Assembly (NCBI RefSeq): GCF_020164745.1
Contig: NZ_JAIUGV010000005.1
Coordinates: 186,001-250,000 of the forward strand
Source: Mesorhizobium sp. ES1-4
GTDB taxonomy: Bacteria; Pseudomonadota; Alphaproteobacteria; Rhizobiales; Rhizobiaceae
Direction: 5' to 3'
DNA length: 64,000 bases
The notes under the pieces are model-generated. The model searched no databases and was not told where the DNA came from. It saw only the letters and a list, made by a program, of their open reading frames with translations. The position numbers were made by a program, and so were the translations under genes. How positions within the stretch are numbered: position 1 is the first letter of the stretch; each line of letters begins with the position of its first letter. Below are positions 44,491 through 60,722 of this stretch, in pieces.

Positions 44491-44500
44491 GGATACGATC

Positions 44501-45325
<825 letters not shown>

Positions 45326-45471
45326 GGCGGGACGCGGCCGGGCAGGCCGCGCGGCACGCCCGTTGCCGTTCACGTGATATGCCAGTGATCACTATGGCTT
45401 GGCCTGACCATTGTGTTGGCCCGGCGACTTGCCCATAAAGGTCCCGTTTTGCTCATGGACCGCATCATCCG

Positions 45472-47112
45472 TTGAAAAAGCTTTTTCCAATCGTTGCGTT
45501 CATCGCCGTTGCATTGATCAGCATGACCATGGCGGGATTTGCTTATTTTGCGACGCAGGAAGCCGCCCGCATCAAGTTCGAAGGGTCGGCCGATGACGCC
45601 CTCAACCGAATCGAGAGCCGCATCGACCTGCATCTGTCGCTGCTGCGCTCGATGCAGGCCCTGTTCGACGCGCGCAACGGTGATATTTCCCAGAACGAGT
45701 TCAAGGCCTTCTTCAAGGCGCTGGATGTCGACAACAATTTCGCCGGCCTGCGTGGCATCGGGTTCCTGCGGCTCGTCAAGACGGGCGACGAGGCAGCGGT
45801 CGAGCGCGACATCCTCCACGATTTCGGCGCCAGCCATCCGGTCTATCCGGACACAACGCAGCCCTGGCGCACGCCGATCACGCTTTTCGAGCCGCTGGAT
45901 CCGTCCAACCAGGCCAGCATCGGCTACGACATGTTCAGCGAGCCGGTGCGGCGCGCGGCAATCGAAAAGGCGATGGCCGACGACCAGCAGCATGCAAGCG
46001 GGCTGGTGCAACTGGGCCAGGGCACGGGCGCTGGGCAGACCTTCACCGGCTTCCTGGTCTTCGTGCGGCTCAATGTCGAAACGGCGCCGGAGGTCATCAA
46101 CGCATCGCGATCCTCGACCGCCGGCTTTCTCTATGCGGCCTTCCGGGCCCGCGACCTGTTCCAGGTCGCGCTGAGCCGTACGCCGCTGCTGCCAGTCAAC
46201 ACGGAGATTTATGACGGAGCGGTGAACGAGGACAATCTGTTGTTCCAGTCGGAGACGCCGCCGGTTTCATCCTTTGGCGACAGGCTGCTGGTCGCCCGCA
46301 AGATCACGGTAGCTGGGCGTCCGTGGACCGTGCTGTTCAGGCCGACCAGTGCGTTCTCGCAGCCGTCGTCGCGTGCCATCCCGGTGATGCTGGGGCTGTT
46401 CGGCTTGCTCCTGGCCGGCGCCATCGCGCTGGTGGCGCGCTACCAGGAGCGGGCCTATGACGCGGTGTCGGCCTTGCACGAGACAACGGAAAAGAGCCTG
46501 CTCGAAAAGGACCTGATGCTGCAGGAGATGAAGCATCGCATCAAGAACTCCATCACCAGGGTGCTGGCGATCGCGCGTCAGACGGCTTCGCGGGCAACCG
46601 ACGTCAATGAGTTCTCCGCTTCCTTCGCGGCCAGGCTCCAGGCGATGGCCGCCTCGCAGGACATGTTGACGCGCTCGCGTTGGCAGAAAGCCGATCTTGC
46701 CGATCTCCTGCGCATCGAGCTTGGCCAAGTGTTCGGCAAGGAACTGCCGGAGGGGCTCCTGTCAGGCCCGGAGGTGCTGCTCGACGAAACCACGACGCAG
46801 GCGCTTGGCCTGACTTTTCATGAACTCGCAACCAATGCGCTGAAATACGGCGAGGTCGGCAATTCCGCCAATTCTTCCAAGGGAGACTGGGCGCTGAAAG
46901 TGGACTGGTCGCTGGAAGGGCGTGGGCGCGAGCGGACGCTGGCGCTCAACTGGCGGGAAGCTGGAAAAGAGAAAGTCGAGGCGCCAGCCGTGACCGGATT
47001 CGGCACCAAACTGATCGACCTCAACGTAACGCGCGAATTGCGCGGCACCATCAAGCGCGATTTCCAGGCTGACGGCCTGAAGGTGGAGATCAGAATTCCT
47101 TTGGTCGGCTAA
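45472..47112 (+). CDS. CHASE-domain sensor histidine kinase, HWE type
   Basis: The 546-residue kinase has a first membrane helix (about 5-27), an extracellular CHASE domain (about 40-290, with FAGLRGIGFLRLV and IGYDMFSEPVRRAAIEKAM), a second helix (about 305-325), and an HWE-type kinase core with His355 in QEMKHRIKNSITRV and the N-box ELATNALKYG. The start is a TTG at 45472; no in-frame ATG is available upstream. Being close to phyR, it is a candidate input kinase for the general stress response. Confidence 0.88.
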   Translation: MKKLFPIVAFIAVALISMTMAGFAYFATQEAARIKFEGSADDALNRIESRIDLHLSLLRSMQALFDARNGDISQNEFKAFFKALDVDNNFAGLRGIGFLRLVKTGDEAAVERDILHDFGASHPVYPDTTQPWRTPITLFEPLDPSNQASIGYDMFSEPVRRAAIEKAMADDQQHASGLVQLGQGTGAGQTFTGFLVFVRLNVETAPEVINASRSSTAGFLYAAFRARDLFQVALSRTPLLPVNTEIYDGAVNEDNLLFQSETPPVSSFGDRLLVARKITVAGRPWTVLFRPTSAFSQPSSRAIPVMLGLFGLLLAGAIALVARYQERAYDAVSALHETTEKSLLEKDLMLQEMKHRIKNSITRVLAIARQTASRATDVNEFSASFAARLQAMAASQDMLTRSRWQKADLADLLRIELGQVFGKELPEGLLSGPEVLLDETTTQALGLTFHELATNALKYGEVGNSANSSKGDWALKVDWSLEGRGRERTLALNWREAGKEKVEAPAVTGFGTKLIDLNVTRELRGTIKRDFQADGLKVEIRIPLVG

Positions 47113-47237
47113 ACATCGTCATCGGCAGCGCGCACAAGATCCGGAGACCGCATATAGCCTCCGGATCTGTGTTTACAGAGCGGCTCAGTGGTTTGATGTA
47201 GCCACCGAGCCGCTCCTGGATTGCTCCAATCGCTGAA

Positions 47238-47483
47238 TTAGTTGCAGCGGGCTTGGTAGGTCGTGCCGTTATGACGGCGATACACGCAGTAGCCGTTGCG
47301 CAGGTTGCGAACCAGCAAGCCGGACCCGGCACCGACAGCCGCGCCGATCAGCGCGCCCTTGCCGCCGCCGACCAACCCGCCCACGCCCGCACCGATCAAG
47401 CCGCCGCCGACCACGTCCTGCTCGGTCGTGGTACAGCCGCTGACGGCTACCACCGCAACCATGGCAATAAGTATTTTCCGCAT
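47238..47483 (-). CDS. glycine-zipper lipoprotein (YMGG-like)
   Basis: An 81-residue lipoprotein: signal MRKILIAMVAVVAVSGC ending in a lipobox, then TTTEQDVVGGG and a glycine zipper (LIGAGVGGLVGGGKGALIGAAVGAGSG), ending YCVYRRHNGTTYQARCN. Such proteins lie in the envelope. ATG 47483 is chosen because the lipobox follows it at the correct distance. Neighbouring stress genes make an envelope-stress role likely but unproven. Confidence 0.82.
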   Translation of the reverse strand: MRKILIAMVAVVAVSGCTTTEQDVVGGGLIGAGVGGLVGGGKGALIGAAVGAGSGLLVRNLRNGYCVYRRHNGTTYQARCN

Positions 47484-47564
47484 TGAGTCGCTCCTCACTT
47501 GTGTCCACACTTTAGTAAGCTGCAACCGCCATTTAGCACGAAACGACGGCCTTTGCTGCTCCAA

Positions 47565-47891
47565 TTATTGTTGGCTAGGGTAGTCCTTTTCTGGGCGGAT
47601 CGCGTTCGATGCCATGACGACGTTGGAAATTGCCAACGAAGCGTCGAGGCTGCCGTCTGGCCGCACCTTCCAGACGATTTGATCGTAGTCGTCCTCCAAT
47701 GCGGGATCGACGGCGAGACATTTGGCGACGACATGCGGCGCTTGCCCCTGCACGTCGCCCATGGCGAAGGGGCGCTCGGCGGTGCATTCGTCAGCAGTCG
47801 CAAAAACACTCACAGGCACTTGCAACTCCCGACATTCGCCCATCGTGTTCGAGCAGCCGATCACCAGCAACAACGCGGCTATGTGTTCCAT
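47565..47891 (-). CDS. small secreted Cys-containing protein, unknown function
   Basis: A 108-residue protein with a hydrophobic N-terminal segment (MEHIAALLLVIGC), then CRELQVPVSVFATADECTAERPFAMGDV and a C-terminal VWKVRPDGSLDASLAI. Four cysteines suggest export. An EcfG-type promoter (GGAAC-N17-CGTT) lies 24 bases upstream of the start, tying it to the general stress response. No family name is known to me. Confidence 0.7.
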   Translation of the reverse strand: MEHIAALLLVIGCSNTMGECRELQVPVSVFATADECTAERPFAMGDVQGQAPHVVAKCLAVDPALEDDYDQIVWKVRPDGSLDASLAISNVVMASNAIRPEKDYPSQQ

Positions 47892-47914
47892 GACAGGTGT
47901 CCTCTGGCCGCAAT

Positions 47915-47940
47915 AACGGCCGACATCGTCAAAAAGTTCC
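47915..47940 (-). promoter_or_regulatory. EcfG-type promoter of the 47891 gene
   Basis: On the minus strand: GGAAC (plus-strand GTTCC 47936-47940), 17 bases, CGTT (plus-strand AACG 47915-47918). The -10 element is 24 bases before the ATG. Confidence 0.6.
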
Positions 47941-48061
47941 TGTCATTCCAATGGTGTTACGCGAATACTTCGGAAAATCGCGGCTCCCTAGGTCGCATCG
48001 CTGCGACGTCGCCGACCGGGCGACTTAAACGGGCGGGGCAGTGAGGAGAGCAGGACTTAAG

Positions 48062-48325
48062 TCAGGCCAAATGCCAGAGAACGGCCAGCAATGTTATCGT
48101 GGCCAAGGCAAGAACGGTCCCCTTCATCAAGCCTTTGCCCGCTTCGGGGAGCGTTTCCACGGAGGATTCGGATTCCAGAAATTCGCCCATCGAAATGCGG
48201 GCGGCTTGTTCCAGTCTGTTGATGTCGGCAACCGTCAAGACCTTCCTCCCGTACCGCACTGCAAGCCTCGCCAACAAATGTCCGAAGACGGTGCGGGTTC
48301 CGGCGGTATCCGGGAAAAACAGCAT
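48062..48325 (-). CDS. small membrane-anchored protein, unknown function
   Basis: An 87-residue protein beginning MLFFPDTAGTRTVFGHLLARLAVRYGRKVLTVADINRL, with a C-terminal membrane helix (about 66-85: GTVLALATITLLAVLWHLA). GAGGAC precedes the ATG at 48325. It lies 49 bases downstream of the soluble HWE kinase on the same strand, so may be co-transcribed with it. The middle (LEQAARISMGEFLESESSVETL) is acidic. Confidence 0.6.
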   Translation of the reverse strand: MLFFPDTAGTRTVFGHLLARLAVRYGRKVLTVADINRLEQAARISMGEFLESESSVETLPEAGKGLMKGTVLALATITLLAVLWHLA

Positions 48326-48374
48326 CCGTCCTCGTGGTGAACAGCCGGTTAAGAATCGCTGCTTGCCGAGGCTC

Positions 48375-49409
48375 TTACTGCGTTTCGAAATTGCTGTGCG
48401 GAACGACAAGGTGGTATTCAAGGCGACCGCCGCCTATGTCGAGGTTCGCGGAGCCGTTCAAGGACGCTGGCACCACACGCTCCAACGCGACGCTGCCAAA
48501 GCGTCTTTGACCGACCCCGTCGCCGCTGGTTCCTGTCGTTTCGGCCCAAGTCAAGGACAGCGCGACCTCCCCCGAGGCGGCGGCGTTGAGGTCGGCGGTG
48601 ACCTCCACGAAACCATCCGGCCGGGACAAGGCGCCGTAGCTGACGGAGTTGACGGCAAGTTCATGCATCGCCAGGCCGATATGCAGCGCGGCGTTGGGAT
48701 TGAGGTAGGGATTGGCGCCACGGAAGCGAAGGCTCTGCGCCGGGTTTATCCCGTAGCGGCCGACCTGGCTCGCCACCAGTTCATGCAGGGCTGCCCCTCG
48801 CCAGTTGGAGGATGTCACCAGATCCTGGGAGGAGGCCAGCGACTGCAGCCGACCGCGGAAGCGCGTCAGGAAGTCGCCGATACCGTCGGAATAGCGACCG
48901 GTCTGAGTCGCGATGCTCTGGATGATCGCCAGCAGGTTCTTCGAGCGATGGCTGACTTCACGCAGCAGCGTCGTCAGTGTCTGTTCGCGCCGCTTCTGCT
49001 CGGTTGTCTCGACCATGGTGGTGACGACGCCATGCACATCGCCGTCGTCGCCTCGGTCGGCATCGATCCAGACCTGGAACCAACGAACGCCATTCTCGAC
49101 CGGAACACTGATTTCAAGGCGCTGAGGATCGCCGGTCGCGACCACATCGCGCTTGGCGGCGCCGATACGGTCGGCCTGCGCCATCGATAGGATGCCATTA
49201 CCCTCGGCTTCGTTAGAGACCCAGGGTGCGCGCATGTTGCGAGCCCATACGGTCTTCATCTCGCGATCCTGATAAAGGACCGAAATGCCTGCATTGTGAA
49301 GCGCATGAAGAAGAGCCCGCCCAAGCTGCATGCCGCTTTCAGCGGGATGCAGCGCGATGACTTCGTCGCTCCGTGTGCCTTCCGTTCTATCTGAAGTCCT
49401 GGAACCCAT
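48375..49409 (-). CDS. soluble PAS-HWE histidine kinase
   Basis: The 344-residue cytoplasmic kinase has one PAS-type sensor domain (about 28-140, ending VVTTMVETTEQKRREQ) and an HWE/HisKA_2 core: His154 in REVSHRSKNLLAIIQSIATQT and the N-box AMHELAVNSVSYGAL. No membrane helix. In alphaproteobacteria such kinases phosphorylate PhyR; its location close to phyR makes it a candidate. A degenerate EcfG-like promoter lies 30 bases upstream of the start. Confidence 0.88.
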   Translation of the reverse strand: MGSRTSDRTEGTRSDEVIALHPAESGMQLGRALLHALHNAGISVLYQDREMKTVWARNMRAPWVSNEAEGNGILSMAQADRIGAAKRDVVATGDPQRLEISVPVENGVRWFQVWIDADRGDDGDVHGVVTTMVETTEQKRREQTLTTLLREVSHRSKNLLAIIQSIATQTGRYSDGIGDFLTRFRGRLQSLASSQDLVTSSNWRGAALHELVASQVGRYGINPAQSLRFRGANPYLNPNAALHIGLAMHELAVNSVSYGALSRPDGFVEVTADLNAAASGEVALSLTWAETTGTSGDGVGQRRFGSVALERVVPASLNGSANLDIGGGRLEYHLVVPHSNFETQ

Positions 49410-49438
49410 CGGTCAATCTGTCCACCCAACCCGGGCTG

Positions 49439-49463
49439 AACGGCTTACCCTCAAATGGTTTCC
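49439..49463 (-). promoter_or_regulatory. degenerate EcfG-type promoter of the PAS-HWE kinase
   Basis: On the minus strand GGAAA (one mismatch to GGAAC), 16 bases, CGTT (plus-strand AACG 49439-49442), ending 30 bases before the kinase ATG. It would allow positive feedback; the mismatch lowers confidence. Confidence 0.35.
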
Positions 49464-49554
49464 CTCTAAAGCGGTCCGCCGGACGGTATCCATTGAAGGA
49501 CGCCGCCCGGCGGTGGCTGGAAACCGTTTGAGGGGTGCGGCTTCCAGTGTTCGC

Positions 49555-49719
49555 TCACGCCCGCCTGAACAGGCCGGCCAGTAGAGAAATGACCAGAAAG
49601 GCGAGGAAGATGAAGAACAATATCTGCGCGATGCCGGCGGATGTGCCGGCGATGCCGCCGAAGCCCAGAGCGCCGGCTATAATCGCCACGACGAGAAATA
49701 CGAGCGCCCAGTAAAGCAT
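49555..49719 (-). CDS. DUF1328 small membrane protein
   Basis: Read from the minus strand, ATG 49719 gives 54 residues: [40 protein letters not shown] and [14 protein letters not shown], two membrane helices. This is the DUF1328 (YtjA-like) family of small envelope stress proteins. AAGGAGA precedes the start, and an exact EcfG promoter match lies 30 bases upstream. Too short to be picked by most gene finders. Confidence 0.92.
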
Positions 49720-49748
49720 GGTTCATCTCCTTCGAATGCTGCGGTAAA

Positions 49749-49773
49749 AACGTGGTTTGATGCGGTTTGTTCC
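49749..49773 (-). promoter_or_regulatory. EcfG-type promoter of the DUF1328 gene
   Basis: Minus strand GGAAC (plus-strand GTTCC 49769-49773), 16 bases, CGTT (plus-strand AACG 49749-49752), an exact consensus match 30 bases before the ATG. Confidence 0.7.
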
Positions 49774-49923
49774 ACCATTCGCCGAAAAAGACGGTGCTTG
49801 CAAATCTTCCGGACGGCGCGGGCTGGAAATTCGCCGCCGGTCGATGCGGCATGTCAAAAGGCCGCCGGATGCATCGCATCCCGCGGCCTTTGATTTCCTT
49901 GTCCGGCTTGTGAACGCCGCGAC

Positions 49924-50718
49924 CTATGCGGCAGCCTTGGCCTGCCGGTCGAAGAACAATGCCTGGCTGATCAGCGCCTTCACCATGTCGGGGTTGAACG
50001 GCTTGGTCACGAGGAAGGCTGGCTCGGGGCGCTCTCCGGTCAGGAGACGCTCGGGAAAGGCGGTGATGAAGATCACCGGCACCGATGTCGACGAGAGGAT
50101 TTCGTTCACGGCCTCGATGCCTGAGCTGCCGTCGGCGAGCTGGATGTCGGCCAGCACCATCTTGGGCCGGGTCTTGCCAAACATCGTCACCGCTTCGGCA
50201 TGAGTGCGCGCCGTCCCCACCACCCGGTGACCGAGGCTCTCGACCATCTCCTCTATGTCCATGGCAATCAGCGGTTCATCCTCGATGATCAGTATGTCGG
50301 TCGCCACCTGACGCGAAATCTCGTTGCTTGCCTGCGCGAGCAACTCGCTGAACTGCTCGTCACCGACATCGAGGATTTCAGCCGCTTCGTCCTCGCTGAA
50401 ACCTTCGACGGCAACCAGCAGGAAAGCCTGCCGGGGAAGTGGCGCGATCGCATTGAGATTGGCGGCCGCGCGCTGCTCCCAGCCCGATTGTGTCTGCTCC
50501 TGCGGAACGCGGATGGCGACCGATGTGAAGAGCTTGGCGAACACCTTGTACAAGGCGATCCGGTCGCTCGACGCGTCCGGGAAAATGTCGATATCGGCAA
50601 TGATGGCCTCAAGCATTGCGGCGACCAGCGCGTCGCCGCTCTCCTGCGATCCCGAGACGGCACGCGAAAAGCGCCGCAGGAAAGGAAGATGCGGAGCGAT
50701 GGTGGCGGACAGGCTCAT
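49924..50718 (-). CDS. phyR: general stress response regulator PhyR
   Basis: The 264-residue protein has the PhyR layout: an N-terminal sigma-factor-like domain (about 1-135, LPRQAFLLVAVEGFSEDEAAEILDV) and a C-terminal receiver with acidic pair IIEDEPLIAMD and phosphoacceptor Asp191 in VLADIQLADGSSG. When phosphorylated the sigma-like domain sequesters NepR and frees EcfG. It is divergent from nepR-ecfG, with back-to-back EcfG-type promoters in the intergenic region. Confidence 0.95.
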   Translation of the reverse strand: MSLSATIAPHLPFLRRFSRAVSGSQESGDALVAAMLEAIIADIDIFPDASSDRIALYKVFAKLFTSVAIRVPQEQTQSGWEQRAAANLNAIAPLPRQAFLLVAVEGFSEDEAAEILDVGDEQFSELLAQASNEISRQVATDILIIEDEPLIAMDIEEMVESLGHRVVGTARTHAEAVTMFGKTRPKMVLADIQLADGSSGIEAVNEILSSTSVPVIFITAFPERLLTGERPEPAFLVTKPFNPDMVKALISQALFFDRQAKAAA

Positions 50719-50786
50719 GGTGGACGTTTCCCTCAGATGACGCGATTGAAAAGATAGCGGCCTGCCGATTGCAAGCCCGGAGCAAC

Positions 50787-50811
50787 AACGCGGCTTTTCG
50801 GAAAAAGTTCC
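50787..50811 (-). promoter_or_regulatory. EcfG-type promoter of phyR
   Basis: Minus strand GGAAC (plus-strand GTTCC 50807-50811), 16 bases, CGTT (plus-strand AACG 50787-50790), an exact match, about 70 bases before the phyR ATG. Confidence 0.75.
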
Positions 50812-50819
50812 GTTCGCAT

Positions 50820-50844
50820 GGAACGAATCGGTGGCGGTTGCGTT
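50820..50844 (+). promoter_or_regulatory. EcfG-type promoter of nepR-ecfG
   Basis: GGAAC (50820-50824), 16 bases, CGTT (50841-50844), an exact match about 90 bases before nepR. Together with the minus-strand promoter nine bases away it makes a compact divergent autoregulated switch. Confidence 0.75.
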
Positions 50845-50932
50845 TTAGCGTCGGGATGGGCAACCAGACGAGGGTGCCGCTTGCCTTGTGTTGTGTGATT
50901 AGCGGCTTGAGTTCTGGGAATATAAGGGCGAA

Positions 50933-51136
50933 ATGAAGGACATGACAAAGAATATTCTGGCTGGCGCTGCGGGCAGGCGCCGGGACGGCGTCGGCGACCC
51001 GCTTGGGGCCAACTCCGAAATCGGACGCAAACTCAAACAATATTACGACGAGCTGGTCTCCGACAATGTGCCGGATCGCTTCGCCCGGTTGCTCAGCCAG
51101 CTGGAACAAGCCGAACCCGCACAGAAGAAGGACTGA
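50933..51136 (+). CDS. nepR: anti-sigma factor NepR
   Basis: The 67-residue protein has the NepR core: GANSEIGRKLKQYYDELVSDNVPDRFARLLSQLEQAE, two short helices that wrap around EcfG or the sigma-like domain of PhyR. A TATAAGGGCG stretch precedes the ATG. Its stop is 3 bases before the ecfG ATG, giving the conserved nepR-ecfG operon. Confidence 0.95.
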   Translation: MKDMTKNILAGAAGRRRDGVGDPLGANSEIGRKLKQYYDELVSDNVPDRFARLLSQLEQAEPAQKKD

Positions 51137-51139
51137 GGC

Positions 51140-51685
51140 ATGGCAGCGGTCTCCCAAGGCTTCAAGGCCGATCTGCTTGGGGCTATCCCCAGCTTGCGGG
51201 CCTTTGCCGTGTCGCTGACGCAAAATGCCGACAAGGCCGACGACCTCGTTCAGGAAACGCTGGTCAAGGCCTGGGACAAGCATGAGAGCTTTCAGCCCGG
51301 CACCAATCTCAAGGCATGGCTTTTCACAATCCTGCGCAACGAATTCTATTCGCAGATGCGCAAGCGCGGCCGCGAGGTTCAGGACAGCGACGGCATCATG
51401 ACGGCTCGGCTTGCGGTGCATCCGGCCCAGCACGGCCAGCTCGACCTCAAGGATTTTCGCGGCGCTCTCGAGCAATTGCCGGAGGACCAGCGTGAAGCCA
51501 TCATCCTGATCGGTGCATCGGGCTTCTCCTACGAGGAGGCCGCCGAAATCTGCGGCTGCGCGGTCGGGACCATCAAGAGCCGCGTCAGCAGGGCCCGCAC
51601 ACGCCTGCAGGAAATCCTGAAAATCTCCGGCGAGGACGAGTATGGTCCCGATGCTATCTCGGCCCAGGTCACGGCGGCGCATTGA
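51140..51685 (+). CDS. ecfG: ECF sigma factor EcfG (general stress)
   Basis: The 181-residue ECF sigma factor has region 2 (LRAFAVSLTQNADKADDLVQETLVKAWDKHESFQPGTNLKAWLFTILRNEFYS) and region 4 (LPEDQREAIILIGASGFSYEEAAEICGCAVGTIKSRVSRARTRLQEIL). It directs RNA polymerase to GGAAC-N16/17-CGTT promoters. Translated right after nepR. It is the likely activator of the promoters listed in this island. Confidence 0.95.
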   Translation: MAAVSQGFKADLLGAIPSLRAFAVSLTQNADKADDLVQETLVKAWDKHESFQPGTNLKAWLFTILRNEFYSQMRKRGREVQDSDGIMTARLAVHPAQHGQLDLKDFRGALEQLPEDQREAIILIGASGFSYEEAAEICGCAVGTIKSRVSRARTRLQEILKISGEDEYGPDAISAQVTAAH

Positions 51686-51725
51686 GATGCGGGCCGGATG
51701 ACGAAGGCAGTCGACCCTCGAGGCT

Positions 51726-52181
51726 TCAGGTCTGGCCTTGGGAGTCTCGACCGTAGGCCATCGCCACGGCTTCGACGAGGTCCGCTCCTGAATAGGGCTT
51801 GGTGACCAGCCTCACGCCGGGGAAAGATGCCTTGATCTCGTCCGCATCCGAATAGCCGGACGCAAATACGAACGGCACGCCGGTCTCACGCAGGCCCGCG
51901 GCGAATTCGAGCGTCGAGGCGCCGCCCAGCATCAGATCGACGATCGCGGCGTCGAAATCCGTCGCGACCTTGCGGCCATCGATTTCGGCCAGGTCGCGCG
52001 CGACCACGACTTCACCCGCACCGTGGTCGCGGCAGAGTTGCTCGACATCCATGGCTATGAGGAATTCGTCCTCCAAGACAAGAATGCGCAATCCGTCAAG
52101 TAATTGGGGCACAGGCAATCGCTCCTTGAAACGCCGGGATTCATGATCGCAATTTGGTGTGTTGTCATTTAAAAAAGACAT
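51726..52181 (-). CDS. single-domain response regulator
   Basis: The 151-residue protein is a lone receiver (about 30-145): LRILVLEDEFLIAMDVEQLC, phosphoacceptor Asp82 in AAIVDLMLGGAS, and FASGYSD with the conserved Lys in LVTKPYSGADL. No output domain. Such proteins act as phosphate sinks or relays for HWE kinases and can modulate PhyR. It lies next to ecfG and diverges from a Crp/Fnr gene. Confidence 0.88.
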   Translation of the reverse strand: MSFLNDNTPNCDHESRRFKERLPVPQLLDGLRILVLEDEFLIAMDVEQLCRDHGAGEVVVARDLAEIDGRKVATDFDAAIVDLMLGGASTLEFAAGLRETGVPFVFASGYSDADEIKASFPGVRLVTKPYSGADLVEAVAMAYGRDSQGQT

Positions 52182-52263
52182 GTGCTGGGGGTGAAAGGCC
52201 GATTTCGGTCAAGCGCGTAAAATGGACCTGCCGGCTGCGGGTCTTGCAAGAGAGGGGGGCGAA

Positions 52264-53025
52264 ATGCCAAGCCAGATCGGGCGCGCTTTTGCAACCCGGC
52301 AGTACGCTTGCGAGCAGTGCCCGTTACGGCCCCTGCCGGCATTCCGGGAGTTCGAGAAACAGGAACTGGCCTTCATCAGCAAGTTCAAGAAAGGAGAACT
52401 CGCGGTCGACAAGGGTGCCACGGTCCTCGTGGAAGGAAGTCACAGCGCGCATCTTTACACGGTGTTGTCCGGCTGGGCGTTTCGCTACAAGCTGCTGCAG
52501 GACGGCCGCCGCCAGATCCTCAACTATCTTATGCCGGGCGACCTCATCGGCCTGCAAGGCAGCGTCATGGGGGAAATGCAGCATTCCGTGGAGGCAATGT
52601 CGCCAATGCTGCTTTGCGTGTTCGAACGTGATAACCTGCATGAACTCTACCGTAACCATCCGGGTCTCGCCTACGACATCACCTGGATCGCGTCGCGTGA
52701 AGAGCGGATGCTGGACGAGAACCTGCTCAGTCTCGGGCGCCGCAGCGCGATCGAGCGCGCCGCCTACCTCATCGCCTTCATCGCCAGCCGCGCCAAGGTC
52801 GTCGGGTTGAACGGCAAGCAGTCCATCCAGATACCGATCACGCAGCAGCACATCGCCGATACGCTTGGCCTGTCGCTGGTTCACACCAACAAGACCATCC
52901 GCAAGCTGATGGACCGCCGGTTGATCGTCTGGCGCGACGGCGGTTGCGGCGTCATCGACATTGAAGGCTTGAAGCAGCTTGCCGGCTGGGAAGGGCTGGG
53001 CGAGAGCCGCCGGCCATTGATCTGA
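52264..53025 (+). CDS. Crp/Fnr-family transcriptional regulator
   Basis: The 253-residue protein has N-terminal Cys16 and Cys19 (YACEQCPLRPL), a cyclic-nucleotide-binding-type beta barrel (about 30-145), and a helix-turn-helix (ITQQHIADTLGLSLVHTNKTIRKLMDRRLI). It lacks the full four-Cys FNR cluster set, so iron-sulfur sensing is uncertain. AGAGGGGGGCG precedes the ATG at 52264; the 52222 frame start has no such site. Confidence 0.88.
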   Translation: MPSQIGRAFATRQYACEQCPLRPLPAFREFEKQELAFISKFKKGELAVDKGATVLVEGSHSAHLYTVLSGWAFRYKLLQDGRRQILNYLMPGDLIGLQGSVMGEMQHSVEAMSPMLLCVFERDNLHELYRNHPGLAYDITWIASREERMLDENLLSLGRRSAIERAAYLIAFIASRAKVVGLNGKQSIQIPITQQHIADTLGLSLVHTNKTIRKLMDRRLIVWRDGGCGVIDIEGLKQLAGWEGLGESRRPLI

Positions 53026-53098
53026 CGCGGCACTTCTTGCCGGGATGAGGCTGATCGGGTGCGCGTGGCCGGGTTTTCGGGTAGTTTGTAGCGGCATC

Positions 53099-53123
53099 GG
53101 AACCTTGAGACGCACGGCGCGTT
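53099..53123 (+). promoter_or_regulatory. EcfG-type promoter of the YqjD/YqjE-like pair
   Basis: GGAAC (53099-53103), 16 bases, CGTT (53120-53123), an exact match ending 31 bases before the ATG at 53154. Confidence 0.7.
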
Positions 53124-53153
53124 TGAAATCGAGCAATCACAAGGAGTTAAGCA

Positions 53154-53480
53154 ATGACAACCGCCGCAGGGAAGACCGTCAACGAAGCGCGGACGAATCC
53201 GGATCTCGAAGCCGATATCAGGCAGTTGAAGGCGGATATCGACAAGCTCACCAAACAACTGGCCAAGACTGGCGAACACGGCTACGGCACGGCGCGCCGG
53301 GCGGCGGCCGACGGCGTCGAGCAGTTGCGTGCCCAAGGCGAAGCGGCCTTCGACAGTCTGCGCGGCAACGCCAGGGACATCGAGGCGCAGATGGTGGCAA
53401 GCGTACGGGAAAAGCCGGTGACGTCGCTGGCAATCGCCGCTGGCGTGGGCTTCCTTTTCGCGCTGCTCGCGCGTCGCTAG
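53154..53480 (+). CDS. DUF883 (YqjD/ElaB-like) membrane-anchored protein
   Basis: A 108-residue protein with a coiled N-terminal part (LEADIRQLKADIDKLTKQLAK) and ARRAAADGVEQLRAQGEAAFDSLRGNARDIEAQMVASVREKPVTSLAIAAGVGFLFALLARR, i.e. the DUF883 pattern with a single C-terminal helix and final basic pair. E. coli YqjD/ElaB proteins associate with ribosomes at the membrane in stationary phase. An EcfG promoter precedes it. The downstream membrane gene starts 10 bases later. Confidence 0.85.
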   Translation: MTTAAGKTVNEARTNPDLEADIRQLKADIDKLTKQLAKTGEHGYGTARRAAADGVEQLRAQGEAAFDSLRGNARDIEAQMVASVREKPVTSLAIAAGVGFLFALLARR

Positions 53481-53490
53481 TTCCGCCGAG

Positions 53491-53970
53491 ATGGGACTGC
53501 TGGCTTCTCTGCTCTCGGGTCTCGCCTCGGGTGAAACAATCGCAGCCGTGCGGCGCGCGCGTAGGGCTGCGATCGCCTATGCGTTTGCCGCCCTGGCGAC
53601 ATTCTGCGGCCTCGGCTTTCTGGTCGGGGCGGCCTATATCTGGACATCGGCGCGCTATGGATCGCTCGCCGCCGCGATTGGTTTCGGTGTCGGCTTTCTG
53701 GTGATCGCCGGCCTCATTCTTCTGACCCACTGGCTGATGTCGGGCGTCCGCGTCCGTCGCGAGGCAAGGCGGCGCAAGGCCGACATGAAGGCGATCGGCA
53801 TTACGGCGGCCCTCGCGGTGCTGCCGAGCTTGCTCAAGGCAACAGGTGGGCTCAAGGGAAAAGCTGGGCTCGGGGTTATTCTCGGTCCGGCCGTGGCACT
53901 CGTGGCTTATGCCATCTACCGTGAGAACGTGAAGTCCGACACCGACCATCCGGATGCCGGCGAGGGATAG
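53491..53970 (+). CDS. phage-holin-like (YqjE-like) membrane protein
   Basis: The 159-residue protein has several hydrophobic helices (about 30-50, 55-80, 100-120, 125-145) and basic loops (RVRREARRRKAD). Its pairing with a DUF883 gene recalls the yqjD-yqjE operon, where YqjE is a holin-family protein. Translation starts 10 bases after the upstream stop, so the two share the EcfG promoter. Confidence 0.75.
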   Translation: MGLLASLLSGLASGETIAAVRRARRAAIAYAFAALATFCGLGFLVGAAYIWTSARYGSLAAAIGFGVGFLVIAGLILLTHWLMSGVRVRREARRRKADMKAIGITAALAVLPSLLKATGGLKGKAGLGVILGPAVALVAYAIYRENVKSDTDHPDAGEG

Positions 53971-54138
53971 CAGCGCCGGCGACCTGCCTCGTGTCACTTC
54001 GACAGATCTTCTAGCCCCATCGATATTTCGGCGAAGACCCCATCGCGCCGAAATTCATGGATTACTTCGCTCGAAATGACCTTGGCCAGACTGCGCCGGA
54101 TGAGGGATCGAGCCGAAGCCCTGCCGCTCGGGTGGGGC

Positions 54139-54483
54139 AAGCGGATTGGCCTTGAAGCGCGGGTCGATGGTCGCATCGGCCACCTCCATCGGTTCGTCTC
54201 CCGCCGCGATCGCATGGGCGCAGAAAGAGATGTCGGTCGCCGTTGCGGTCTCGTTCAGGCCGACGCGGGACTTGAACTATTGCCGCTCGATATCGACGAG
54301 CGTAACCAGCGCGACGGGCACTTGCATCACGGCAGTGGCAACGCTGGTGACACGATCGAAATCCGGGTCGGCCGCGGTATCCAGCATCTCCAGCCCGTGC
54401 AGCACGGCGAGCCGGTCTTCATCCTTCACCGCGCGGACGACTTCGGCCGGCAGACGGCGCACTGTTTCAGCCTTGCTATTCAC
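54139..54483 (-). pseudogene. GAF-domain protein remnant with internal stop
   Basis: Minus-strand GTG 54483 opens EDRLAVLHGLEMLDTAADPDFDRVTSVATAVMQVPVALVTLVDIERQ, a standard GAF-domain start, then a TAG (plus-strand 54277-54279) exactly where the family has Trp. Past the stop the same frame continues FKSRVGLNETATATDISFCAHAIAAGDEPMEVADATIDPRFKANPL, before similarity ends near 54139. The rest of the GAF fold and any output domain are missing. So there is at least a nonsense change (TGG to TAG) plus a 3' truncation. Confidence 0.75.
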
Positions 54484-54524
54484 CCAAGTCCCCAATGCGT
54501 GGCCGTTTTGGCCCTGGCCCGCCC

Positions 54525-54549
54525 GGAACCATCCTAGCAAGGAACCGTT
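54525..54549 (+). promoter_or_regulatory. EcfG-type promoter of the 58-aa membrane protein
   Basis: GGAAC (54525-54529), 16 bases, CGTT (54546-54549), an exact match about 58 bases before the ATG at 54607. Confidence 0.65.
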
Positions 54550-54606
54550 ACCCGACGGTGATCTACCGACTGCGCTGGTTGGCGCATAACGAGACGAGGG
54601 CCGACC

Positions 54607-54783
54607 ATGACCAAGACCATTCCTGAAAACAAAGCACGCCAGGGGCGTTGGGGTTGGCACGGCTTGCGTATCCTGATCGCGGCGCTGCTTCTAGCCTTCG
54701 TGGCTTGGGGTGTCGCTGAAATGTATGGCGAAACGGCAAAGACTCCGGCCACCGAGCAAGGAAATGCGCCGAACGGCGGCTAG
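54607..54783 (+). CDS. 58-residue single-span membrane protein
   Basis: ATG 54607 gives MTKTIPENKARQGRWGWHGL, a helix (RILIAALLLAFVAWGVAEMY) and a short polar tail (GETAKTPATEQGNAPNGG). It is too short for most gene finders, but the EcfG promoter, codon use and membrane helix support it. The GACGAGGG run before the ATG may act as ribosome site. Function unknown; an EcfG-dependent envelope peptide is the best description. Confidence 0.65.
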   Translation: MTKTIPENKARQGRWGWHGLRILIAALLLAFVAWGVAEMYGETAKTPATEQGNAPNGG

Positions 54784-54830
54784 ATTTCCGGCCATCATCG
54801 CCACGGATTGCGTCAAGGCCAGGGTCCGCA

Positions 54831-55751
54831 TCAGGCAGCTTTTGCCTCGGCAATGCGGGCGGGCACCAGGACGTTGAGCGCTCCGGGCCGGATTTCGATT
54901 ATCGTCTTTGGATCGAGCCTGACCAGTTCGCCGTCCATGACGGCGCGAAACCTTCTGCCGCCGGAATGAATTTGTAGCACTGCACGGTCTGCCTGGTGGA
55001 TTTCTACGTGCTCGTTGTCGCGCCATTTGCCGCGCGCCACGTCGAATAAGAACTTGACCAATTCGGCACGCTGCTTCGCCACCGTGACATAAATGCCAAG
55101 CACGCCGCCGGCTGGGTTGTCGGCGTACGGCAAATGGCCTTCGCCGAAAAGATTGTTGGTGACGGCGATCCCTGATACGCGCGCCGTCACCTCGGCATCG
55201 CCAATGCCGAGCGTGACGTTCATAGCCGGCGGGTTCTTGATCGTTTCCCAGGCCGCTTTGGCCGAAGCACCGATCTTGCCAAGGCGCGACCCGAATTCCA
55301 TTCCCTGGCGCAACTGCACCATCCTGGCATGCATGCCGATCGAGAATTGGTGGACGAAAGGCTGGCCGTTGGCCGTGGCCATGTCGACCGCGATGATTTC
55401 GCCATCGGCGAAGGACTCCAGCGCTGCATCGAGCGACTGTGGAATGCCAAGGCTACGGGCAAACAGGTTCATCGTGCCGGCCGGCAGTATGGCGAGGGCC
55501 TTTTTCTTATTCATCAGCCTTGCCGCCGCCGCTGAGATGGTGCCGTCGCCGCCACCGGCCAGTACGACATCGACGGCGCGGCGCGATGCAGCCCTGTCGA
55601 GGGTTTCCGCGATCTCCTTGCCGGCAACGACTTCGATGCTGAGAGAGTGGCCCGCCGCTTCCAGCGTCTGACGCATCCGGTCGGAAAAAGCTGCCAGATC
55701 GGTGGTGCGCAAGGTGCCGCCGTCCCGGTTCAGCACCGCCGCGAATTTCAT
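54831..55751 (-). CDS. diacylglycerol/lipid kinase family protein
   Basis: The 306-residue protein is a DAGK_cat-family member: nucleotide motif GGGDGTISAAAARL (66-71 core), LPAGTMNLFARSLGIP, and the C-terminal segment FRAVMDGELVRLDPKTIIEIRPGALNVLVP. Members phosphorylate diacylglycerol, sphingoid or related lipids. Its promoter matches EcfG with a 17-base spacer, so it joins the stress regulon. ATG 55751 removes four ambiguous residues. Confidence 0.87.
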   Translation of the reverse strand: MKFAAVLNRDGGTLRTTDLAAFSDRMRQTLEAAGHSLSIEVVAGKEIAETLDRAASRRAVDVVLAGGGDGTISAAAARLMNKKKALAILPAGTMNLFARSLGIPQSLDAALESFADGEIIAVDMATANGQPFVHQFSIGMHARMVQLRQGMEFGSRLGKIGASAKAAWETIKNPPAMNVTLGIGDAEVTARVSGIAVTNNLFGEGHLPYADNPAGGVLGIYVTVAKQRAELVKFLFDVARGKWRDNEHVEIHQADRAVLQIHSGGRRFRAVMDGELVRLDPKTIIEIRPGALNVLVPARIAEAKAA

Positions 55752-55807
55752 GCCCCGCTCCACTGCTCAATGAGGACTAGGCCGGGCCGCGCCCAGCCGA
55801 GGGCTGA

Positions 55808-55833
55808 AACGCTGCGAACCGCAGAAAGGTTCC
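55808..55833 (-). promoter_or_regulatory. EcfG-type promoter of the lipid kinase gene
   Basis: Minus strand GGAAC (plus-strand GTTCC 55829-55833), 17 bases, CGTT (plus-strand AACG 55808-55811), 57 bases before the ATG. Confidence 0.6.
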
Positions 55834-55932
55834 TTTACGGGCCGAAACAGGGCCGGAGTCCAGGGTTTCGCCGACTGGCCGTCAGGTATCCGCTTCGTGG
55901 TTTTGGTTCCGGAATTCTTGCGGATTTTTGTC

Positions 55933-55957
55933 GGAACAACAGCATAGTCACGACGTT
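55933..55957 (+). promoter_or_regulatory. EcfG-type promoter of the PRC-barrel gene
   Basis: GGAAC (55933-55937), 16 bases, CGTT (55954-55957), an exact match, about 86 bases before the ATG at 56043. Confidence 0.7.
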
Positions 55958-56042
55958 GTGAACCTGTAGAAGCGCCGCATCCGATCTCCCAGCAGTGGGG
56001 GAACGGCGTGCGGCACACGAAATCAGGCACGAGGAGATTACC

Positions 56043-57347
56043 ATGATCCGCACCCTTTTAGCGACGACTGCCCTTGCGACAATGGTTGCAACCGGCGCCT
56101 TCGCGCAGAGCGCCGCGACCCCGGCCCCCGCGAACCAACCTGCTGCCCAGGAGCCGACTGCCGCGCCTGTTCAGCGCGCTGAAGGCAGCATCGTCACCAA
56201 TATTATCGGCGCGTCGGTCTATAATGGCACCGGCGACAATGCCGAAAATATAGGTAAGGTGTCCGACGTCGTCTTCGACAAGGATGGCATGGCGAAATCC
56301 GTGATCATCGGCGTCGGCGGCTTCCTTGGCGTCGGGACCAAGAACGTCGCCTTCGACTATAACAAGCTGCAATGGGCCGAGAAGAACGGCGACCGCTGGC
56401 TTGTTGCGCAGACGACCAAGGACGAGCTGACCGCGCAGCCGGAGTTCGACAGCAAGGCTTATGCGCCGGCCCCTGCCACATCGGCGAGCACCCAGGCACC
56501 GGCCACGTCGACTGACACCGCCCAGAAGCCCGCCGACATGAATGCACAGCCGGTGAAACAGGCTGACGGCAACCTCGCCACAAACATCATCGGTGAAGAC
56601 GTCTACAACGGCACCGGCAACGACGCGCAGAAGATCGGCGACGTCAACGACATCGTGCTGACCAAGGACGGCAAGGCTCAGTCGCTGATTATCGGTGTCG
56701 GCGGCTTCCTGGGCATGGGGGAAAAGAACGTCGCCTATGATTTTGCCAAGGCAAAGTGGGCACAGAAGGATGGTGAGCGCTGGCTGGTGGCTCAGACCAC
56801 CAAGGAAGAGCTGCAGGCGCAGCCGGCCTTCGACCGCAAGGCCTACGACCCGATGCCGGCTACGACGGCATCGAACGAGCCGGCGGCAACCGCCCCCGCC
56901 ACGGCACCTTCCGCAGCGACAGCTCCCGCTGCCGCTCCGGCGGACAAGACGGCGGCGGCGCCGGCTGACGCTACGGCACCCGACCAGACGCAGACCGCGG
57001 CCATCGACAAGTCGACGCTGACGGAAATGCCGCTTGGCGAGATCAGGGGCGAGGATCTGAAAGGCACGACCGTATACGGCGCCAACGACGCCAAGGTCGG
57101 CGAGATCGGCGACGTCGTGCTGATGCCCGACAAGAAACCCGATGCCGTCATCGTCGATGTCGGCGGCTTCCTCGGCATCGGGTCGAAGGAGGTCGCGATC
57201 GGCATGGACAACTTGAAGTTCATGACCGACAAGAACGGCAAGAAGTACCTTTATACGACCTTCACCAAGGAGCAGCTTGACAAGCAGCCGGCTTACGACA
57301 AGGGCTCCTACACCGCGAAGCGCGACGAGCAGCGTCTCGTTCAGTAG
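56043..57347 (+). CDS. exported protein with three PRC-barrel domains
   Basis: The 434-residue protein has a signal peptide (MIRTLLATTALATMVATGAF, cleaved near AFAQ) and three PRC-barrel repeats at about 48-140, 177-268 and 338-428, each with the IIGVGGFLG or VDVGGFLG turn. Ala/Pro/Thr-rich linkers separate them. PRC-barrels bind proteins or RNA in other contexts; here an envelope role is likely. It is driven by an exact EcfG promoter and is one of the longest products of the island. Confidence 0.88.
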   Translation: MIRTLLATTALATMVATGAFAQSAATPAPANQPAAQEPTAAPVQRAEGSIVTNIIGASVYNGTGDNAENIGKVSDVVFDKDGMAKSVIIGVGGFLGVGTKNVAFDYNKLQWAEKNGDRWLVAQTTKDELTAQPEFDSKAYAPAPATSASTQAPATSTDTAQKPADMNAQPVKQADGNLATNIIGEDVYNGTGNDAQKIGDVNDIVLTKDGKAQSLIIGVGGFLGMGEKNVAYDFAKAKWAQKDGERWLVAQTTKEELQAQPAFDRKAYDPMPATTASNEPAATAPATAPSAATAPAAAPADKTAAAPADATAPDQTQTAAIDKSTLTEMPLGEIRGEDLKGTTVYGANDAKVGEIGDVVLMPDKKPDAVIVDVGGFLGIGSKEVAIGMDNLKFMTDKNGKKYLYTTFTKEQLDKQPAYDKGSYTAKRDEQRLVQ

Positions 57348-57376
57348 GCAATAATACGGGGCGGTAGGGAAATTCC

Positions 57377-58939
57377 CTACCGCCCCGCATGCGACGACCT
57401 GGCATATCCTGCGATTCCGTTTTCAGTGAGTTGCGAGAGCGCAAGTGACTGGTCGAGATGTTCGGCCCGCCAGGCAAGCAGCCTTTCGGCGAATTCCAGC
57501 CGGGTGGAACGATGTGCCGGACTGCCGGCGAGGTTCTTCAATTCGCCAGGGTCTGCCTCCATGTCGAAAAGCAGGGGCGGCAGGCCGCCGCCAAAATGCA
57601 CGTATTTGAATTTCTTCGTGCGGATGACCGCGAGGTTGCACTGGCGCGAGGCAATGCCGAAGTGCCGTTCGGCTTCACCGTCGGCGATCGAGCGAAAGTC
57701 GAACTCCCAGTGCGCGGCGTCACGCCATGCGGCGGGGGTTCCGCCGCTCAGGAAGGGTTTCAGCGAGCACCCGTCGAGATGCGGTTCGGGAGCCACGCCG
57801 AGCAGATCGATGAGCGTAGGCAAAATATCCACCGCTTCGGTGAAGCGATCGACAGTGCTGCCGGCGGCCTTGCGGTGGCGTGGGTCGCGGACGATCAGCG
57901 GGATGTGGTAGCTGCCGTCGAAATAGCCGCCCTTGCCCAGCATGAAATGTTCGCCCATCATTTCAGCGTGGTCGGAGGTGAGCACGATGATGGTGTTGTC
58001 CCACGCGCCTTCGGCCCTCAGCGCCTGCCATAGGCGGCCAAGCTGCGCGTCGACCTCCGAGATCATGCCGTAATAGATTGCCCGGATGCGGCGGAAATCA
58101 TCCTCGCTCCAGTCGTGTACCTTGCCCGTGGCGCCGGGGCGGAACTTTGCGCGTTCCTGCCGGCCAAGGTCATAGGCGATGTAAGGGTGGGCCTGAGATT
58201 CGGCGCGCCAGCTTTCCGCCCGATGAAAAGCGGGGCCGTCCGCCGGGTCGTACTGGGTGTTGTACGGTTCCGGCACGACGAAGGGCGGATGCGGGCTGAT
58301 AAAGGAAAGATGCGCAAACCATGGCGCCGCCTCCTCTTGCTCACCCAGCCAGCGGATGAATTCGCCGGCAAGAAAGGCCGTTGGCGTCTGGTCCTTCGAG
58401 TAGACAGGCGGTGCTTCAGTCACCGCGCCGTCCGCCTCGCCCATGGGACGATGGATGTCAGGGCTTCCAGCGCTGGCGTCGATGCCCTGCTGCTTCAGCC
58501 AGGACAACCACTGCTTCTGATCTTCGGGCAGCAATTGGCGCACCGTGAAGCCGGGCAGCACGCCTTCATAGCTGCGCAACCGTGGATCGGCCGGCGCAAG
58601 CTGGCGCGGATCGAGCGACACATCGGTGTAGCCAAACAAGGTCGGGTCGTAACCGACGCTGCGTGCGGCAAGCGCGATATTGCCGTGGCGGGCATCAAGC
58701 GGCGTCCCGTTACGGCAGACACGGTTGTTCATCTGGTAGAGGCCCGTGTAGAGGCAGGCGCGCGCGGGCGAGCACGGGGCCGCGCCGCCGTAATGGCGCT
58801 TGAACAGCACGCCCTCGGCGGCCAGCGCATCGGCATTCGGCGTCTTCACCTGGGGATGGCCGGCAGCCGACAGGCAATCGCCGCGCCACTGGTCGCAGGT
58901 GATGAGGAGCACATTTGGCCGCCTGCCTTTTCCAGTCAC
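57377..58939 (-). CDS. sulfatase-superfamily hydrolase, phosphonate monoester hydrolase-like
   Basis: The 520-residue enzyme has the formylglycine motif CSPAR (Cys56 by GTG 58939 numbering, in GGAAPCSPARACLYTGLYQMNN), N-terminal metal site NVLLITCDQWRGD, and later SDHAEMMGEHFMLGKGGYFDGSYHIPL. Its overall pattern is close to the rhizobial phosphonate monoester hydrolases, which cleave phosphonate and sulfate monoesters. The GTG at 58939 follows AAGGGGAG; an alternative in-frame start lies at 58960. It needs an FGE or similar maturase, not in this window. Confidence 0.87.
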   Translation of the reverse strand: MTGKGRRPNVLLITCDQWRGDCLSAAGHPQVKTPNADALAAEGVLFKRHYGGAAPCSPARACLYTGLYQMNNRVCRNGTPLDARHGNIALAARSVGYDPTLFGYTDVSLDPRQLAPADPRLRSYEGVLPGFTVRQLLPEDQKQWLSWLKQQGIDASAGSPDIHRPMGEADGAVTEAPPVYSKDQTPTAFLAGEFIRWLGEQEEAAPWFAHLSFISPHPPFVVPEPYNTQYDPADGPAFHRAESWRAESQAHPYIAYDLGRQERAKFRPGATGKVHDWSEDDFRRIRAIYYGMISEVDAQLGRLWQALRAEGAWDNTIIVLTSDHAEMMGEHFMLGKGGYFDGSYHIPLIVRDPRHRKAAGSTVDRFTEAVDILPTLIDLLGVAPEPHLDGCSLKPFLSGGTPAAWRDAAHWEFDFRSIADGEAERHFGIASRQCNLAVIRTKKFKYVHFGGGLPPLLFDMEADPGELKNLAGSPAHRSTRLEFAERLLAWRAEHLDQSLALSQLTENGIAGYARSSHAGR

Positions 58940-59164
58940 TTGCGCTCCCCTTGCCAGCACGTTCGAATGCAGACATGGAACCGATTTCCATCAGCCGCGC
59001 AAGACCGGGCTGTTGGCCGAATGGTGAACGGATGTCTTCTTATTGTTCACTTTTAAAGCACAGTCCATTCTGTCTTTGCGGCCTTTGCCGCAATCAATCG
59101 CGTCCTCATATTGGCGTGGACAGCGGCGAGGGCCGCACAAACACCAAGGGAAGGAGCAAAAACC

Positions 59165-60097: not shown

Positions 60098-60101
60098 GGC
60101 G

Positions 60102-60722
60102 ATGAGCACGGACGCTTTCATCCACAAGGTGCTGCCCGGTTCGCCGGGTGGTCCGCTGCTGTTCGTCTTCCACGGCACGGGCGGCGACGAGAGCCAGCTT
60201 GTATCGCTGGGGCGCGATCTCGTGCCCCAGGCGACCATCATCTCGCCCCGCGGCGACGTTTCCGAGCAAGGTGCCGCGCGCTTCTTCCGCCGCACCGGCG
60301 AGGGCGTCTACGACATGGACGACCTGGCGCGGGCGACGGGCAGGATGGCTGAATTCGTCAAGGCCCATGTCGAGGCGGCGAAGCCGTCGGCCGTGCTGGG
60401 TCTCGGCTATTCCAACGGCGCCAACATTCTGGCCTCGGTGGTGTTTGCCGCGCCGGCACTGTTCGATGCCACGGTGCTGATGCATCCGCTGATTCCGTTC
60501 GAGCCGGAGGTGAAAGGCAGCCTTGCTGGTCGTCACATCCTGGTGACCGCCGGCAGGCGCGATCCGATCTGCCCGCCGAACCTGACGGCGCGGCTGGAAG
60601 CCTATTTGCGTGCCGATGGCGCCGATGTCACAGTGGAGTGGCACGAAGGCGGGCACGAGGTGCGGCCAAACGAAATCGAGGCGGCGCGGCGGCTTTTTGC
60701 CGGCGTTGCCCAAGGAGTCTAG
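60102..60722 (+). CDS. MhqD-like alpha/beta-hydrolase
   Basis: A 206-residue hydrolase of the phospholipase/carboxylesterase (YtpA/MhqD) family: oxyanion region FVFHGTGGDE, nucleophile Ser104 in LGYSNGAN, Asp154 in GRRDPICP and His185 in EGGHEV. It is thought to hydrolyse quinone-cleavage products. It is coupled to the dioxygenase upstream and is followed two bases after its stop by a GNAT gene. Confidence 0.88.
   Translation: MSTDAFIHKVLPGSPGGPLLFVFHGTGGDESQLVSLGRDLVPQATIISPRGDVSEQGAARFFRRTGEGVYDMDDLARATGRMAEFVKAHVEAAKPSAVLGLGYSNGANILASVVFAAPALFDATVLMHPLIPFEPEVKGSLAGRHILVTAGRRDPICPPNLTARLEAYLRADGADVTVEWHEGGHEVRPNEIEAARRLFAGVAQGV

Follow-up and report, generated by a model that had tools for sequence, protein, structure and literature searches.

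Genes and promoters of the locus

The window analyzed here is a stretch of 64,000 nucleotides from Mesorhizobium sp. ES1-4 (contig NZ_JAIUGV010000005.1, positions 186,001 to 250,000). Between positions 47915 and 55957 of this window lies what we read, with high confidence, as the locus for the general stress response in a Mesorhizobium-like bacterium, together with a cis-linked part of its regulon. The PhyR-NepR-EcfG locus itself is already known, and this is a further instance of it. Its promoters carry the motif GGAAC-N16/17-CGTT, the same as the published EcfG1 consensus of Rhizobium etli (GGAAC-N16-CGTT; PMC3892343). The regulators and the sites linked to them are the following; fractions give the orthologues, in the 80 related loci described below, that have an exact motif within 250 bp upstream.

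49924–50718, minus strand: phyR (Pfam PhyR_sigma2, PhyR_sigma-like and Response_reg; PDB 4g97, E 1.4e-117)
50787–50811, minus strand: EcfG-type promoter of phyR (exact motif; 80/80)
50812–50819, no strand: gap of 8 bp between the two divergent −35 boxes, from the sequence
50820–50844, plus strand: EcfG-type promoter of nepR-ecfG (exact motif; 78/80)
50933–51136, plus strand: nepR (Pfam NepR, 2.3e-15; PDB NepR chains)
51140–51685, plus strand: ecfG sigma factor (Sigma70_r2 and r4; PRK12547, 1.1e-106)
48375–49409, minus strand: HWE histidine kinase (Pfam HWE_HK, 1.6e-22; HRSKN motif)
49439–49463, minus strand: variant EcfG-type site GGAAA-N16-CGTT, 30 bases before the HWE kinase gene (exact motif in 58/80)
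51726–52181, minus strand: lone receiver with the motif PFVFASGY (Pfam; nearest solved structure 2lpm)
52264–53025, plus strand: Crp/Fnr-type regulator (Pfam, NCBIfam), adjoining ecfG

PhyR combines sigma-like and receiver domains, and nepR, the single match to the NepR model in the whole genome, is divergent from phyR and adjoins the gene for an extracytoplasmic function (ECF) sigma factor. The sigma factor gene starts 3 bases after nepR and has no motif of its own in 79 orthologues; the two genes are a probable operon. From its neighbors and family hits, we infer that the sigma factor belongs to the EcfG (ECF15) group. EcfG-type promoters precede both the phyR and the nepR-ecfG unit. HRXXN is present in both HWE kinases of the region (HRSKN and HRIKN), placing kinases of the HWE/HisKA2 kind near the locus, and the one at 48375–49409 is a candidate kinase of the PhyR branch. 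A first-pass annotation, made by a model from the sequence alone, had placed PhyR, NepR, an ECF sigma factor, two HWE kinases and a lone receiver in one island. Pfam confirmed all of these families, but one kinase, the flanking CHASE-HWE protein (45472–47112), lies outside the promoter cluster, and 0/71 of its orthologues have the motif within 250 bp.

Six further exact sites stand before neighboring genes:

47915–47940, minus strand: EcfG-type promoter (N17), 24 bases before 47891 (exact motif; 66/67)
47565–47891, minus strand: 108-aa protein with four invariant cysteines, no family
49749–49773, minus strand: EcfG-type promoter of the DUF1328 gene (exact motif; 80/80)
49555–49719, minus strand: DUF1328 small membrane protein (Pfam, 8.3e-16)
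53099–53123, plus strand: EcfG-type promoter of the DUF883-like gene (exact motif; 77/78)
53154–53480, plus strand: DUF883-like protein (Pfam E 1.7e-5, below the cut-off)
53491–53970, plus strand: 159-aa protein (no Pfam or NCBIfam family; no motif of its own in 78 orthologues)
54525–54549, plus strand: EcfG-type promoter of the 58-aa gene (exact motif; 62/70)
54607–54783, plus strand: 58-aa protein with one hydrophobic stretch (no Pfam family)
55808–55833, minus strand: EcfG-type promoter (N17) of the lipid-kinase gene (exact motif; 62/65)
54831–55751, minus strand: DAGK/YegS-type lipid kinase, MamU-like (above the Pfam cut-off, below NCBIfam cut-offs)
55933–55957, plus strand: EcfG-type promoter of the PRC-barrel gene (exact motif; 62/74)
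56043–57347, plus strand: protein with three PRC-barrel domains (Pfam PRC, 1.5e-38, three stretches)

The gene of the 159-aa protein begins 10 bases after the DUF883-like gene and probably shares its transcript.

The motif is concentrated at the locus and conserved in relatives

The exact motif occurs eight times in the window, each time within 47915–55957, and permitting a spacer of 18 yielded no extra match. In 100 dinucleotide shuffles of the window, the mean number of matches was 1.17 and the maximum 5, and none reached eight. Distances from promoter to start codon are 24 bases for the gene starting at 47891, 30 for 49719, 69 for phyR, 89 for nepR, 31 for 53154, 58 for 54607, 57 for 55751 and 86 for 56043. 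The 8.0 kb of the island thus contain 8 matches where the genomic density of the motif would predict about 0.17 (~47-fold). The first-pass annotation had listed eight exact matches close upstream of start codons on both strands, and all eight stand, at 24–89 bases; its chance expectation of about 0.1 match per 8.5 kb is likewise close to the genomic figure of about 0.17 per 8 kb. Two sites escaped that list. There are 20 one-mismatch sites in the window, and only one of them, the GGAAA-N16-CGTT site of the HWE kinase at 49439–49463, sits 10–110 bases before one of the 16 listed genes. The other is the site of the Crp/Fnr-type gene, which is kept in 46/57 orthologues and, from a comparison of the upstream sequences, was lost in this strain.

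The related loci are the best 80 of 564 relatives found by PhyR; nearly all come from Mesorhizobium or close genera, and their PhyR proteins are 82–98% identical. Together they contain 713 matches to the motif, against 25 control matches, and 708 of these motif matches fall within −7 to +3 kb relative to where phyR starts. In the gene-by-gene count of orthologues, the control gave 0–5 hits per gene. The borders of the set are sharp: in addition to the CHASE-HWE kinase, the other flanking genes lack the motif in their orthologues (sulfatase, 0/65; glycine-zipper gene, 2/74), and within the island the lone receiver has it in only 1/80. The first-pass claim that regulators and targets are linked in one island is supported by these borders, by distances that are similar across the 80 loci and by the agreement with the R. 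etli consensus. Twenty loci from 18 other families of the order contain 85 sites, against six control matches, and here the motif stands within 300 bp upstream of 6/7 DUF883, 6/12 DUF1328, 5/9 Crp, 10/19 phyR and 10/15 nepR homologues.

A matrix built from the island sites of the relatives also ranks the island high. It was trained on orthologues of the very sites in question, and its scores were not used as evidence.

Spacing of the divergent phyR and nepR-ecfG promoters

In this strain, the promoters of phyR and nepR are arranged back to back, with 8 bp between their −35 boxes. An exact pair is present in 78 of the 80 loci, with gaps of 7 (1 locus), 8 (14), 9 (52), 10 (6), 18 (1), 19 (3) and 22 bp (1). 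Gap length in the short class has a standard deviation of 0.56 bp; for the same two promoters, the distance from site to start varies more (standard deviations 6.5 and 5.6 bp). The sequence of the gap is poorly conserved, with a mean identity of 47% among the 52 loci with a 9-bp gap (39 distinct sequences); the nepR spacer averages 55%. The other divergent pair of the island, that of the lipid kinase and PRC-barrel genes, has gaps of 25–120 bp in 59 loci (standard deviation 22).

We sought exact pairs with gaps of 0–30 bp in 397 genomes of the order and found them in 90 genomes, at 108 distinct places, with two control matches. Sixty-three of these 108 places, picked for family spread and off-peak gaps, were classified, and 35 of the 63 are linked to phyR. 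For gaps of 31–60 bp, 37 of the same 397 genomes yielded 43 places, and the control pattern matched in six; 30 places were classified, and the seven linked to phyR all have gaps of 31–32 bp. Beyond the 80 loci, this makes 43 phyR-linked pairs including L279 (see below), with gaps of 5–10 (22 pairs), 19 (1), 23 (1, at the phyR paralogue L229) and 27–32 bp (19). None of these 43 has a gap of 11–17, 24–26 or 33–60 bp. The gaps of pairs not linked to phyR are spread over the whole range, and an EcfG-like gene without phyR (L233) has a pair with a gap of 24. Since short and long forms occur together within each of two families (f14 and f27), the change of gap class probably happened more than once.

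The spacing rule covers strict-consensus matches and phyR-linked pairs; an exact pair is absent from the majority of genomes in the order. We claim it within the order only, because, of 289 genomes drawn from the class to look beyond it, 18 matched (two of these being members of the order) and six had control matches; among three outside places that were classified, one (L279) is phyR-linked, with a gap of 8. In a Rayleigh test at 10.5 bp, 21 family-level events gave R 0.73 (p about 1e-5), and 33 non-phyR pairs of up to 32 bp gave R 0.16 (p 0.41). The best-fitting period of the phyR-linked events is 19.75 bp, as the short and long classes dominate, and we therefore claim the classes instead of a proven helical period. 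The available text of the literature on the locus yielded no description of a fixed gap or of a shared A tract between phyR and nepR, and the spacing is apparently an undescribed geometric rule.

Divergent pairs of this type also occur elsewhere. In family f11 (L299, L300, L302, L305, L306, L307), a further divergent EcfG pair lies at the DUF1328 gene; its gaps of 55–59 bp are perhaps also constrained. In family f35 (L275, L276), exact divergent pairs with gaps of 4–6 bp have no phyR beside them.

An A/T tract upstream of the −35 boxes

Both promoters of the pair have an A/T-rich block at −19 to −12 from the −35 box, a stretch that we picked after viewing the A/T profile. Its A/T fraction is 0.76 for phyR and 0.84 for nepR in 78 loci, and 0.71 and 0.74 in 36 pairs from other families; elsewhere in these promoters it is 0.33–0.39 (−11 to −1) and 0.39–0.46 (−40 to −20). 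An A/T-rich tract is accordingly present upstream of the −35 box where an UP element would lie (about −45 to −60), within the limits of a stretch chosen post hoc. At the same offset, the A/T fraction is 0.41 in 56 other intergenic candidate promoters of the genome and 0.39 in 53 coding matches, and we rejected the block as a general feature of EcfG promoters.

The two main gap classes differ in how the tract is made up. In the short form it is the run of T that follows the opposing GGAAC; in the lineage, a run of at least five occurs in 71/73 phyR and 42/73 nepR promoters, and outside the lineage in 11/22 and 10/22. With a gap of 9 bp, two of the eight tract positions are the TT of GTTCC, so the block is partly built in. 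Long-form pairs have the T run in 1/13 and 1/13; in them, the gap itself holds the A/T tract, at an unchanged distance from the −35 box. In the few cases with gaps of 18–22 bp, the tract is found at this offset mainly for nepR. At the other island promoters, with 46 to 80 cases each, a T run of at least five occurs in 0 to 11.

Candidate promoters outside the island

For each of the 129 matches that lie outside the island we examined the flanking sequence, with a codon-usage gene caller for the split into coding and intergenic sites. Fifty-six of them lie between genes and are directed towards a start no more than 150 bp away, and 13 point away; for 457 random places in the same flanking stretches, the numbers are 44 and 37. 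About 43 of the 56 may be real promoters, with perhaps a quarter background, and the island holds 8 of the 64 candidate promoters overall. Ten downstream proteins of the 56 were hand-picked and scanned in pieces no longer than 70 aa, and Pfam hits above the cut-off were obtained for six: two CsbD, two Ku, one DUF892 and one DUF3008. A regulon beyond the island is likely to exist. EcfG-dependent genes of Sphingomonas melonis are reported to include a PRC-barrel, a Ku and a Crp-type gene (PMC6599016).

The EcfG-type sites L106, L166, L167, L183, L148 and L189 of this genome lie before the two Ku, two CsbD, DUF892 and DUF3008 genes and a second, weak DUF1328-like gene.

Interpretation and alternatives

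By analogy with studied relatives, EcfG dependence and partner switching would operate here as follows. HWE kinases would phosphorylate PhyR, and phosphorylated PhyR would capture NepR, so that EcfG is released (PMC8103513, PMC4814048). RNA polymerase with EcfG would transcribe phyR and nepR-ecfG, a positive feedback, and would also transcribe the six neighboring envelope or unknown genes or operons from their GGAAC-N16/17-CGTT promoters. The feedback would probably reach the adjacent HWE kinase, given the site in 58/80 relatives. The first-pass description of a general stress island with a set of EcfG promoters is supported to this extent.

Several results weigh against this picture. In the whole genome of 6,462,643 bases, the exact motif occurs 137 times and the reversed control 186 times, which is no enrichment; the consensus alone is therefore uninformative and a single match proves little. 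In other families, most homologues of the lipid kinase (0/4), the PRC-barrel protein (1/4) and the HWE kinase (1/11) lack the exact motif, and exact sites are entirely absent from 2 of the 20 loci (L209, L217). For the regulon beyond the island, the classifier of coding and intergenic sites is crude, and the remaining four of the ten downstream proteins comprise one DUF1328 hit below the cut-off and three without a Pfam hit. Taken with the close kinship of the 80 relatives, the genome-wide counts could suggest that the sites are chance matches or ancestral sequence kept by descent. We give this almost no weight, since no shuffle reaches eight matches, the relatives exceed their control by 713 to 25, sites recur in other families (85 against 6) and the 9-bp gap between the conserved boxes has a mean identity of only 47%. 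It is also improbable, if somewhat less so, that EcfG acts only on phyR, nepR-ecfG and a few others, with the lipid-kinase, PRC-barrel and 58-aa genes under another ECF sigma factor with a similar −35 box. The motif-poor homologues of the lipid-kinase and PRC-barrel genes in other families would fit such a division, as would the eight places in the genome that match the PhyR_sigma2 model, several of which, besides phyR and ecfG, may be other ECF sigma factors. Against it, these three genes share the consensus and the distance class of the others and keep the site in most lineage orthologues (62/65, 62/74 and 62/70).

For the divergent pair, we tentatively propose, at close to an even chance, that the promoters of phyR and nepR-ecfG make up a single bidirectional, composite promoter with gaps of about 9, about 19 or 27–32 bp (in steps near one and two DNA turns) and an A/T tract 12–19 bp upstream of the −35 boxes. 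In this reading the short form would have two tracts, each in the opposing spacer, and the long form one shared central tract; a fixed offset from tract to −35 box would explain both main gap classes by one rule. Our preferred meaning of the tract is a shared UP-like element, UP elements being the sites of bacterial promoters that are bound by the C-terminal domain of the RNA polymerase α subunit (α-CTD). The main rival to an α-CTD site treats the T run as part of an ECF −35 box of greater strength (GGAACTT, the form known for E. coli RpoE) and ascribes the kept gap to compact intergenic packing, with no shared UP-like element; this is a serious possibility, though we put it below even. A review gives GGAACTT as an RpoE −35 box (PMC8103513), and T runs of at least five also occur in 11/62 lipid-kinase promoters. 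In addition, an A/T block precedes the DUF1328 promoter of the lineage at an equal offset and with no divergent partner, so the block is not unique to the pair. Against this rival, the long-gap pairs nearly all lack the T run yet have the tract in the gap at that offset, and site-to-start distances vary by several base pairs while the short-class gap stays nearly constant.

If the composite promoter is real, synthesis of the sigma factor, the anti-sigma factor and the anti-anti-sigma factor would be coupled through promoter geometry across many families of the order. A functional spacing rule would be a promoter-level means of holding the three partner-switch proteins in proportion. For the genus Mesorhizobium, on whose general stress response and EcfG we found little literature, the island also offers a small set of stress genes that can be tested.

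Products of the target genes and other observations

The first-pass annotation had described several targets as lacking a known role. Part of them can be named (DUF1328, DUF883-like, YegS/MamU-like lipid kinase and triple PRC-barrel proteins), while the 108-aa protein at 47565–47891 and the 159-aa protein have no family and the 58-aa protein has no Pfam family. The island encodes two 108-aa proteins, that at 47565–47891 and the DUF883-like one at 53154–53480. The former, which matches no Pfam or NCBIfam family, has four cysteines (C13, C20, C36, C58) that are invariant in 26 sequences. The first-pass annotation listed a secreted 108-aa protein, but this one has no clear signal peptide: in the AlphaFold model (mean pLDDT, the per-residue confidence score, 78), the hydrophobic start, residues 6–13, forms a strand. 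Foldseek found nothing at E 0.001 or better for this model, the best VIA Z among its matches being 5.2; with no confident match, we claim no fold assignment.

L083 (G000:C34:203782-203943), a match to the PhyR sigma-like domain model (4e-21) inside a 182-aa open frame, is possibly a second EcfG-type sigma factor. No Rfam family reached its gathering threshold in 44000–60500.

Comparison with known systems

The lone receiver resembles the FATGUY regulators (MrrA, SdrG, Sma0114) in standing alone beside the locus, and its matches among solved structures include 2lpm (E 3.8e-12), the nearest, which we take to be Sma0114, and SdrG (5ieb, E 4e-7). The FATGUY motif is given as PFXFATG(G/Y) (PMC5964349), and unlike it the receiver here reads PFVFASGY; we therefore did not assign it to the group. 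Among the relatives, 36/80 readings of the lone receiver contain a PFxF motif (3 FATG, 33 FASG), and 44 have none, perhaps from misplaced frames.

Like an UP element, the tract of the divergent pair is an A/T-rich block, here about 12–19 bp upstream of the −35 box. Unlike the usual UP element, it stands at two divergent ECF promoters, where α-CTD binding is putative.

The locus as a whole is like the general stress response loci of other Alphaproteobacteria, such as rsiB1 / rsiA1-rpoE2 of Sinorhizobium meliloti and phyR-tcrY / rpoE4 of R. etli: it has the same three proteins in divergent order, EcfG promoters on both units and a histidine kinase gene nearby (PMC4814048, PMC8103513, PMC3892343, PMC3616915). 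For S. meliloti rsiA1 and rsiB1, start sites have been mapped behind RpoE2 promoters (PMC3616915). Unlike the loci described in the available parts of these sources, the one in Mesorhizobium sp. ES1-4 combines back-to-back promoter spacing with a cis-linked set of at least six further target units.

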